Below, in pieces: positions 30,875 through 33,541 of a DNA stretch of 38,351 nt. Under the pieces are notes generated by a model, which saw only the letters and a program-made list of their open reading frames with translations, did not search any database and was not told the DNA's origin. Source of the DNA: a virus; IMG/VR virus record IMGVR_UViG_3300050137_000241, positions 1-38,351 of that record. One strand, 5' to 3'. The translations under genes and the position numbers were made by a program. Every line of letters starts with the position of its first letter. Within the stretch, counting starts at the first letter, position 1.

Positions 30875-31398
30875 GTTGCCTCCATTCCAAACAAACATCC
30901 CTGATCAAGCACCGGCACGCATCGCGGCGCGTCGAAATCGTCGGTTTCGTCCATCATATCCGGCGGGTTTTGGGTAAGGTATTCGATGCGCGCCCACACT
31001 TCGTCGGTATCGAAGTCCGCTGCAGCGTCAATTTTCGCCAGCATCCACAATCTCTCATGGTCCGCATTACAGCCCAGGGCGTCACAGGCGGCGTCGAAGC
31101 TCAAAAGCCAACCATCCCTATCAAAAAACGGATCGGGCGCCACACGCGCAATCCAGGCGCGCGCCATGATAGCCATATCCCACAAGTCATACTCCCGATT
31201 TCGCCCCGTCTGGATGAGATCACCTAACATCGGCGATCCATCCGGATACCATCCGGCGGCGTAGGGGTAGATTATGCCCTCCACCCGCAGCGCCTCAAAC
31301 ATCGCCATCCGGATTTGTCGCCAGAAGAACTGCATCACCGGCGTATAGCGCGGCCCGCGTCGTGCTGCCTGCCACTTGCTTACGTTGAGTTTAGCCAT
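30871..31398 (-). CDS. Hypothetical protein (175 aa)
   Basis: Not recognised. A 175-residue protein rich in aromatic residues (PVMQFFWRQIRMAMFEAL, IIYPYAAGWYPDGSPMLGDL, YDLWDMAIMARAWI) with an acidic C-terminal half (DDFDAPRCVPVLDQGCLF). The start ATG shares one base with the upstream stop (TAATG) and its own stop overlaps the HTH gene as GTGA, so it is part of the replication operon between the loader-like gene and the HTH gene. Confidence 0.7.
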   Translation of the reverse strand: MAKLNVSKWQAARRGPRYTPVMQFFWRQIRMAMFEALRVEGIIYPYAAGWYPDGSPMLGDLIQTGRNREYDLWDMAIMARAWIARVAPDPFFDRDGWLLSFDAACDALGCNADHERLWMLAKIDAAADFDTDEVWARIEYLTQNPPDMMDETDDFDAPRCVPVLDQGCLFGMEAT

Positions 31399-31868
31399 TA
31401 CTCGCCCCGTTCCACTTTCGCCCGATACCGCTTTGCCGCTTCTCTGCCGTACACCGCTGCCACTTCCTCAAACGTCTCTTCGCGGATTTCAAGGCCCGTA
31501 AGCTGTTTCCATCGGCGCGGTGTCAGCGGCACGTAAACAAACGGAGTTGACGGTCGTGCCGCCTCGATTCGTTCGCGCAACTCCGACGGCTGTGGGAAGA
31601 ATCGGCTCGCCATCAGGTGTTCGCCAAGTGCCGCCCGTATCGCTGGGAGTCCGAACTTGATCGCCAGGGCGATCCACGCCGGAGCCCACATCTCTACCGT
31701 TTCCTCCGGTATTTCCTGGCTCGGATAGCTGCGCTTTGTCTGGTCCATCAGCATCGAAACCTGCTCCAGCCCGTATACGTCCAAAGACATTGGCAATCGC
31801 CGTACTAGATCGCTGGTTTCGTCCGCGCGCAGGATTCTCTCCAGCGCCACGCTGTCCGCTCGTTGCAT
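31398..31868 (-). CDS. Putative replication accessory / helicase-loader-like protein
   Basis: A 156-residue helical protein whose centre (SYPSQEIPEETVEMWAPAWIALAIKFG, then ALGEHLMASRFFPQPSELRERIE) follows the pattern of phage replication accessory proteins located after an O-like gene, many of which are annotated as helicase loaders (P-like). No ATPase motif is seen. The ATG at 31868 has AGGGG four bases upstream. Its first 380 bases overlap, in another frame, the 3' part of the replication protein gene, an unusually long overlap. The loader role is inferred from pattern and place. Confidence 0.6.
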   Translation of the reverse strand: MQRADSVALERILRADETSDLVRRLPMSLDVYGLEQVSMLMDQTKRSYPSQEIPEETVEMWAPAWIALAIKFGLPAIRAALGEHLMASRFFPQPSELRERIEAARPSTPFVYVPLTPRRWKQLTGLEIREETFEEVAAVYGREAAKRYRAKVERGE

Positions 31869-32793
31869 GGTTCCCCTTCGGCTTGCCGTATGCGTCTTTT
31901 GGTCCACTCAGGTAGTCAGTCACGCACTCCAGCCACTTGCGCGGGCGGTCGGATGGCTGCACATCGCTCAACGCGCGATTCTTTAGGCATTGGTTGAATT
32001 GTTCGAGGGTAAAGTTCGGCATAGCGCGCAACATGCTAGCCAGCGCCTTACCTTCACTACCATCCCACGGAGCATCGACACCCACCAGAGCGCGCCAGTG
32101 ATCCTTTACGGCTGCCCTGAAGGTGATATGCCTCGGGTCGGTCACTTTTGAGGATTTGAGATTGAGAGTATGCGCCGCCGGCGTAGCTGGCGCAAGTATT
32201 TGTACTGGTACTTGTACTTGTACTTTAGCAACACCAACACCAACACCAACACCAACAAGTACATCATCCGAAATGTTTTCAAATGTTTTATAAGTTTCTA
32301 AAACATTTTGGACGGTTTGAGAAGTTTCTAAAACATTATAAAATGTTTTATAAGTCTCTGAAATCTTCCCAAAACCTTCCGAAATAATATCTAAGTCGTT
32401 CTTATTACGCGCCCTTAGTGATTCCACGTAGGAGTTCCGGAACGCCTCTAGTTCTTGCGGAGCCGGAGCCGGAGTCTTACGGTCGGCGGCGGCGCGGTAT
32501 TGCCCCAGCAGCTTCTCTGGCACGTCCCACTGCGCCCACATTGACCCGTCGTGCGCTTTATAGATAAATAGCAGGAAGTTGGCGTGGTACTCGCGCAGCC
32601 ATGCAGTCATTTGTTCCTTGGATGGTTTGGCGTGGAAGCTGCCATACACCTCGCCCTGCAGCCAGTCGACGCTCATACGGAAGCGCCCGAACGTATTCGA
32701 CGCCGCCAACAGCCGCGGAAAGTGCAGCTGTGCCTCATCCGAGCACGCCGCCACCCGATCACCATGTAATAGCCCTTGTGGATCAATCAGCAC
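31489..32793 (-). CDS. Phage replication protein (O-like), contains candidate origin
   Basis: A 434-residue protein. The N-terminus (LHFPRLLAASNTFGRFRMSVDWLQGEVYG, MWAQWDVPEKLLGQYR) resembles the winged-helix initiator domain of phage replication proteins; residues ~225-320 (RHITFRAAVKDHWRALVG, FTLEQFNQCLKNRALSDVQPSDRPRKWL) resemble the C-terminal domain. Between them lies a repetitive segment (NVLET repeated every ten residues, then VGVGVGVGV) encoded by AT-rich iterons. The last ~125 residues are Gly/Asp/Arg-rich and overprinted on the next gene. Start GTG at 32793 has GAGGAG seven bases upstream and overlaps the methyltransferase stop. Confidence 0.75.
   Translation of the reverse strand: MLIDPQGLLHGDRVAACSDEAQLHFPRLLAASNTFGRFRMSVDWLQGEVYGSFHAKPSKEQMTAWLREYHANFLLFIYKAHDGSMWAQWDVPEKLLGQYRAAADRKTPAPAPQELEAFRNSYVESLRARNKNDLDIISEGFGKISETYKTFYNVLETSQTVQNVLETYKTFENISDDVLVGVGVGVGVAKVQVQVPVQILAPATPAAHTLNLKSSKVTDPRHITFRAAVKDHWRALVGVDAPWDGSEGKALASMLRAMPNFTLEQFNQCLKNRALSDVQPSDRPRKWLECVTDYLSGPKDAYGKPKGNHATSGQRGAGENPARGRNQRSSTAIANVFGRIRAGAGFDADGPDKAQLSEPGNTGGNGRDVGSGVDRPGDQVRTPSDTGGTWRTPDGEPILPTAVGVARTNRGGTTVNSVCLRAADTAPMETAYGP
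32230..32360. repeat. AT-rich iteron cluster, candidate replication origin
   Basis: Inside the replication gene. AAATGTTTT occurs five times: forward at 32271, 32281 and 32341, reversed at 32300-32308 and 32330-32337, giving inverted pairs TAAAACATT/AATGTTTTA. AAGTTTCT or AAGTCTCT recurs at 32292, 32322 and 32352, exactly 30 bp apart. Next to it is a 6-bp CAACAC tandem (32230-32256). In lambda the origin iterons likewise lie inside gene O. Confidence 0.65.
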
Positions 32794-33541
32794 GTTCCAA
32801 CTCCTCAATCAGTTGCTTGATGCGTCGTGCGTATAGTTCCGGTATCTGCGGGACTACGGCGTTGCCGAGTCCTCTAAGGCGGTTCATCCGATTGGCAGGC
32901 CCATCAGCCATTCGCGGAATGTCGTCGACCGAACGAGGTCCGGGCGGATAAAATCCACAAGTTGATCGCAGAGGTTCGCAATATGGAGACGCCCCCCCCC
33001 TCCCGCGTCGAATCCGGTTGCCGCGTCCACTCTGGCCTTTCCAGTCTCGCGTCGTCGGGGTATGCCAATATCCAGACTCGCTCTCGATGCTGGGAAGCCC
33101 CGAGTGAGTCAGCCCCCATAACTTCCCACTCCGCGTCATACCCGAGCGCGGCAAGGTCGCACAGAACTCGGACAATTCCCCGTCCAAGCAAAGCTGCGAC
33201 GTTCTCAATGAGCACGAAACCAGGTCTTTAAGCTCCCCAATAATTCGGCTGTAGTCCGCCCATAGTCCGGACCGCTCTCCCTCGATACCGGCACGAAGAC
33301 CGGCGTTACTGATGTCCTGGCAGGGGAACCCGCCGACGATGACATCAACGGGCTTGAGGTTGTGTCGTCCGCATTCTCTGACATCTGCATATCGCTCCGC
33401 AACGGGGAAGTTCTTCGCCAGCACCTTGCGGCACCAGGGGTCAATCTCAACCTGCCATACAGTTCTGAAACCAGCGCGCTCAAATCCAAGGTCAAACCCT
33501 CCAATTCCAGCGAACAGCGAGCCTACCGTGTAAGTCCTCAA
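32783..33541 (-). pseudogene. dcm: C5-cytosine DNA methyltransferase, frameshifted twice
   Basis: The 252-codon frame from TTG 33541 (GGAGG eight bases upstream, TTGA overlap) has motif I FAGIGGFD, VEIDPWC and the catalytic C74 in GFPCQDIS, and ends with the family C-terminus RLRGLGNAVVPQIPELYARRI. The conserved middle (VLIENVAALL, ASQHRERVWILAYPDD) lies in the -1 frame (33215-about 33000). Frames change at an AAA run (33227-33229) and back at a G9 tract (minus; 32992-33000). As written the enzyme would lack motif ENV and QxRxR. Explanations: sequencing error, a decaying gene or length-variable tracts. It would have protected phage DNA from restriction. Confidence 0.8.

Follow-up and report, generated by a model that had tools for sequence, protein, structure and literature searches.

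A theta-replication origin very probably lies in the linker codons of this phage's own replication-initiator gene, as in lambda, where it would combine an array for the initiator's N-terminal domain, a site of DNA opening and the recruitment of a helicase. The window analysed is the 38,351-bp IMG/VR virus record IMGVR_UViG_3300050137_000241 (positions 1-38,351). On its minus strand, the initiator gene spans 31489-32793 within an ORF of 31489-32808; the likely GTG start at 32793, whose position is the same in relatives, is preceded by a ribosome-binding site, GAGGAG, at 32801-32806. Around it are genes for a cytosine methyltransferase-like ORF, a beta clamp, a YqaJ/RecE-like exonuclease and a terminase. 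An earlier note, made from the window alone, had proposed a lambda-type origin inside the initiator gene. Our analysis supports and sharpens this proposal through the repeats, their phasing, a layout kept in 14 relatives and the lowest duplex stability in the window, from which we infer origin activity. The lambda-type reading is favoured over that of a control site because the array lies mid-gene, between the DNA-binding and C-terminal domains, and coincides with the lowest stability.

The AT-rich repeat block within the initiator gene was confirmed; its repeats greatly exceed chance expectation and have no equal elsewhere in the window. On the coding strand, the block consists of 12 units resembling TTYNRAA, a 7-bp near-palindrome, with at least 5 of 6 informative positions matching. 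These units occupy 32267-32383 (minus strand) at successive spacings of 10, 10, 10, 10, 11, 9, 10, 11, 9, 10 and 10 bp, while the longest chain elsewhere in the window, like the longest in 50 window shuffles, has two units. We propose that this segment is both the initiator-binding array and the unwinding element. The range of 32230-32360 given earlier is slightly short: the phased array extends to 32383, and two tandem blocks (32229-32257 and 32196-32225) come after it in the gene. Of the five copies of AAATGTTTT noted in both orientations, all within 32271-32349, four are exact and the fifth carries one mismatch; four exact copies compare with 0.12 expected in the whole window, a number reached in 0 of 100 shuffles. 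Three copies of AAGTYTCT at exact 30-bp steps were found as described, at 32292, 32322 and 32352, and four further single copies occur elsewhere in the window. They mark about three 30-bp repeats (32271-32360), each made of three 10-bp turns, and the peptide repeat of the linker reads ETYKTFYNVL / ETSQTVQNVL / ETYKTFENIS. The 30-bp period is therefore present, but as a higher-order repeat of this phage, the basic unit being 10-11 bp, or one helical turn.

The physical properties of the block were also distinctive. Its self-identity at lags of 10, 20 and 30 bp was 0.55, 0.47 and 0.58, versus 0.30 in shuffles. AA and TT were each 10-bp periodic when taken separately (0 of 3000 shuffles reached this), and the pooled AA+TT count gave no 10-bp signal in the block because AA and TT alternate every 5 bp. 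The block has a GC content of 27.5% (32263-32400). In nearest-neighbour energy, no other 100-bp or 130-bp stretch among the 38,351 bp is as unstable (-1.147; the window mean is -1.546 with an sd of 0.076, and the next weakest stretch has -1.26), and curvature predicted by a simple planar wedge sum is highest in the window at this place.

Along the gene, the TTYNRAA array is followed by two tandem hexamer tracts on the same strand. The nearer one, (GTTGGT)n at 32229-32257, encodes VGVGVGVGV and is C-poor, with one C in the 30 coding-strand bases of its VG codons; we propose it as a strand-asymmetric tract. The farther one, (AAGTAC)n at 32196-32225, encodes VQVQVPVQ and was found in this phage only. 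In four relatives (L006, L007, L009 and L028) the linker hexamer block reads GGGGTTGGGGTA..., which could in principle form G-quadruplexes on the coding strand. G-quadruplexes were rejected as a conserved feature, since GGGG runs are confined to these four relatives and the shared trait is the lack of C.

Taken together, the arrangement would fit the following mechanism. The winged-helix N-domain of the initiator would bind the phased TTYNRAA units, touching the same side of the helix roughly once per turn, and the bound initiators would assemble into a nucleoprotein array. Such binding would strain and open a duplex whose stability is the lowest in the genome to begin with. The array of this phage is itself AT-rich, and the adjacent C-poor hexamer tract may be captured as a single strand. 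The replicative helicase would then be recruited through the initiator's C-terminal part together with the product of the gene next to it. We infer all these steps, from binding and opening to strand capture, loading of the helicase and origin activity, by analogy with lambda, SPP1 and winged-helix plasmid initiators.

Elsewhere in the window, cumulative GC skew (1-38351) climbs until about 30.2 kb and declines from there to the right end; the turn lies between the terminase and replication modules and has a sign opposite to that of a leading-strand-G origin at 32.3 kb. Owing to this mismatch in position and sign, the skew lends no support to an origin at 32.3 kb, but skew follows transcription in a 38-kb phage. 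Rfam and tRNA scans returned nothing. A 27-bp tandem repeat at the contig end (38186-38351; about six copies, 98% identical, encoding a QSAATNTGD repeat) was considered as a rival origin and rejected, as it is GC-rich, peptide-coding and located at an assembly break; a second assembly (L005) breaks within it.

To place the array in a wider context, relatives of the initiator were sought. When IMG/VR was scanned with one protein at a time (the initiator, the product of the downstream gene and the beta clamp), only one contig came back, 100% identical, which is no evidence of conservation; tblastn against phages with the whole protein and with the N-domain yielded nothing useful, and no relative was found in the genome collection scanned. 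A degenerate DNA pattern for the N-domain recovered two divergent contigs, and alignments built from these led to 14 distinct IMG/VR relatives (L033 and L034 being the same gene), whose N-domains share 33-67% identity with the window protein. Whether the iterons are kept in relatives with the same protein received a divided answer: the exact AAATGTTTT and AAGTYTCT sequences are not conserved, but TTYNRAA-like units were present in all 14 linkers, 9-11 or 21 bp apart. The array in relatives comprises 3-8 such units after the N-domain and is shorter and less AT-rich than the 12-unit array of the window. Over the whole set, 49 of 54 neighbour spacings were 9-11 bp and the other 5 were 21 bp, or two turns; L017 has three units only, in 21-bp steps. 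C-poor (GGNGTW)-like hexamers encoding (VG)n follow the units in 11 of the 14 relatives. L029 and L032 carry instead a shorter GTW-rich tract encoding V-rich runs, and L019 has no hexamer block after its units. The linkers of relatives are often, not always, the weakest DNA of their own locus.

The TTYNRAA unit and the segment limits were defined after the sequences had been viewed, with only the L061/L062 lineage held out. This lineage, represented by two near-identical contigs and found after the unit was fixed, fits the layout: it carries TTCCGATAATTTCGGAAATTTTCGGAAA, three units 10 bp apart, and then a GGTGTTGGTATT tract, GGTGTTGGTATTGGAGAAGGTGTTGG. In one subfamily, a further run of 3-5 TTYNRAA units spaced 10-11 bp apart was seen within the winged-helix codons, some 270 bp ahead of the linker array (L028:5123-5171, L032:5134-5180, and also L027, L030 and L033); it exceeded what synonymous re-coding would give in L028 (P 0.002) and L032 (P 0.02) only.

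The earlier note had also suggested that the DNA element has shaped the linker peptide, a view supported by tests of codon usage and by synonymous simulation. Compared with the remainder of the gene, both the array and the hexamer block had reduced GC3 in all 15 genes (Wilcoxon 3e-5 each). Valine codons in the block were GTT or GTA in 58 of 59 cases versus 51 of 151 elsewhere (P=5e-20), and glycine codons were other than GGC in 71 of 73 cases versus 138 of 251 elsewhere (P 1e-13), although tests across codons are not fully independent because the genes are related. We further re-coded the genes synonymously, keeping the peptides and drawing codons from each gene's own usage. TTYNRAA sites numbered 38, against 11.3 expected (sd 2.8, maximum 21 in 2000 re-codings), a 3.4-fold excess, and units numbered 69, against 39.4 (maximum 47); 49 of 54 neighbour spacings were 9-11 bp, versus 13 of 25 in the re-codings. 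Since codon choice is skewed for the given peptides, the DNA, and not the peptide alone, is under selection, and the layout forces unusual codons on the initiator gene.

These results bear directly on the alternative that the peptide is what is selected, as a linker that is flexible or of low complexity (FGKISE, VGVGVG), the DNA pattern being a by-product. The recurrence of the (VG)n run and of FxKxSE-like words in relatives would agree with such a linker, but the valine and glycine codon skew and the excess of TTYNRAA over synonymous expectation speak against it. Moreover, unit starts fall in the three codon frames 27, 16 and 26 times; all three frames are used because 10 and 11 are not multiples of three, and the peptide repeat therefore cannot be the cause. 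The unit persists in the DNA while the amino acids it encodes vary, and the window encodes different peptides with it. Of all the evidence, this frame independence argues most strongly for a peptide that follows the DNA, and we regard selection on the peptide as quite improbable.

Two other explanations deserve consideration. The block might be a control site: the initiator or a repressor could regulate the operon from it as an operator, or it could be a site of the partition type; phased short palindromes would suit cooperative repressor arrays and the initiator could autoregulate. However, the array is mid-gene between domains, which is no promoter position, and is the lowest-stability DNA; the established parallels at that position are origins (PMC7466680, PMC6316719), and no partition genes were present among the genes examined, making a control site improbable. 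Alternatively, a functionless AT-rich insertion or a recent tandem duplication may have arisen by replication slippage in a tolerant linker, and 30-bp and 6-bp tandem repeats are indeed typical of slippage. Yet the architecture is kept in 14 relatives at the N-domain divergence given above, in which the repeat sequences have diverged while phasing and strand composition stayed constant, so that this alternative is highly improbable.

The origin reading also draws on the initiator protein. Its N-terminal part, about residues 1-110 (32461-32790, minus strand), was modelled with AlphaFold2 as a winged-helix DNA-binding domain; models of 15 N-domains reached a pLDDT of 88 and a pTM of 0.81, with the element order helix-strand-helix-helix-strand-strand of a winged helix. 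The best named viral matches by Foldseek (BFVD) were Mx8 p19, a replication protein of a Ralstonia phage and phage replisome organizers, the last with E-values of 2e-4 to 7e-4. Fold matches in the PDB were general winged helices only, including ORC2 and plasmid Rep domains (Z 6-7), and similarity to the Rep initiator domains 4pql, 4pt7 and 5kbj was middling (Z 5.8-6.2). The N-domain is thus predicted to be a winged helix resembling phage replisome organizers. No family was detected for it in PHROGs or Pfam, nor any detectable sequence relation to lambda O there.

The earlier description of the protein as O-like is right for the family: the C-termini of L029 and L033 match PHROG 678, 'replication initiation O-like' (1.8e-22 and 3.6e-24), and C-termini of relatives also match proteins of sequenced phages annotated as O (8e-16). 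The C-termini of L006, L007 and L009 match PHROG 270/9474/9327, 'replication initiation / primosomal', and that of L010 matches PHROG 1032, likewise a known initiator family. The window protein itself matches no library, and its own C-terminus gave no initiator-family match in the libraries searched, so that the initiator assignment rests on the relatives. Neither the initiator nor the next protein downstream had a meaningful match in Pfam, PHROGs, NCBIfam or PDB sequences, and no credible match to the initiator or the candidate loader emerged from the PDB sequence search. In L007, L009 and L029, the neighbour of the initiator gene, overlapping or abutting it, encodes a DnaB-like helicase. In the window, the downstream overlapping gene is a 169-aa ORF (31398-31907, minus strand), a possible helicase loader: the role is plausible by position, and relatives of its product in L010 and L017 match PHROG 2289, 'helicase loader', weakly, at E 0.07-0.1 only. 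Its fold model (pLDDT 71) had no significant PDB match. The initiator ORF stays open for about 420 bp (31489-31907) across the start of this ORF in a different frame, and overlaps of about 170-430 bp are likewise found in L010, L015, L017, L028, L030 and L033.

Lambdoid origins contain four to six 18-19-bp inverted-repeat iterons that O binds, with an adjacent AT-rich unwinding tract, and are activated by transcription. The lambda origin lies in the middle of gene O, with bent inverted-repeat iterons bound by O and an adjacent AT-rich tract that opens upon this binding and whose single strand O binds as well (PMC7466680, PMC5043065). The element in the window shares with it the mid-gene position between the DNA-binding and C-terminal parts, repeated near-palindromic sites that the initiator would bind, DNA curvature (predicted in the window), a tract of low stability and few Cs lying 3' of the sites and a replication gene downstream, here the weak loader candidate. 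Lambda differs in having four 18-bp iterons about 20-24 bp apart, compared with 12 units of a 7-bp core 9-11 bp apart here, and in having its AT-rich tract beside the iterons, whereas in the window it is the array that is AT-rich, with a G/T hexamer block next to it. Because its repeats are not lambdoid iterons, the window's origin would work like lambda's but stand outside the lambdoid class. In SPP1, oriL is within gene 38 (PMC6316719), likewise an origin in an initiator gene (gp38, with gp39 as loader and gp40 as helicase), and unlike gp39 the loader in the window is only a weak candidate. Iteron plasmids of the TrfA/RepE type also have winged-helix Reps and helically phased iterons (PMC5043065), and for plasmid initiators of the winged-helix kind, capture of an unwinding element that contains repeats is specific to one strand and requires every repeat (PMC4081077); the plasmid origins are described outside the coding gene, their iterons are longer and no sequence relation was found. 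A lambda-type origin inside the initiator gene is our best reading of the window. That arrangement is familiar from lambda and SPP1, and the novelty lies in the family of the initiator, in an array with one unit per turn and in a tract with strand asymmetry.

We also considered initiators of unrelated named phages (L037-L051 and L035:9248-10429), chosen by C-terminal similarity or fold and not by their linkers. Strand-asymmetric 5-6-bp tandem repeats, repeated sites or both often occur at about 0.4-0.6 of these genes. Tandem repeats in the linker are (CAGAGA)n in Rousseau, (CCCGA)n in the Gordonia phage Daredevil and the Microbacterium phage Footloose, (TGGAGA)n in Mx8 p19, telomere-like (CCCTAA)n in the Microcystis phage Mwe-JY08, (AGAAG)n in PfDIW6 and (AACCAG)n in R6L; repeated sites are found in the linkers of LittleTokyo, Pam4, PEp14 and PHB09. 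Mx8 p19, Rousseau, Daredevil, Footloose, Mwe-JY08, PEp14 and PfDIW6 thus resemble the window in having short strand-asymmetric repeats or repeated sites in the linker, and differ in the repeat sequences and in N-domain sequences that are unrelated. We know of no experiment on the linker repeats of Mx8 p19 and these other initiators. As the sample is small and uncontrolled for codon usage, we treat this wider pattern as a lead, not a result. A distinct origin design is a tentative and rather doubtful proposal: a regular initiator filament on 3-12 phased TTYNRAA units, each helical turn contacted by one winged helix, then one-strand capture at an adjacent C-poor (GGNGTW)n tract, and, more generally, repeated sites plus a strand-asymmetric tandem repeat in linker codons as a widespread rule of phage initiators.

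As judged from sequence, the initiator family is undescribed, and the evidence for selection at the DNA level is unusually direct. A family of uncultured phages thereby gains a specific, base-resolved origin prediction, and selection on DNA and on protein is seen to act on the same codons. How winged-helix initiators open DNA has been described as still open (PMC5043065), and if the strand-asymmetric tract is a single-strand capture site, these phages would offer a simple system for this question. If the layout proves general, many phage origins could be located by scanning initiator linkers.
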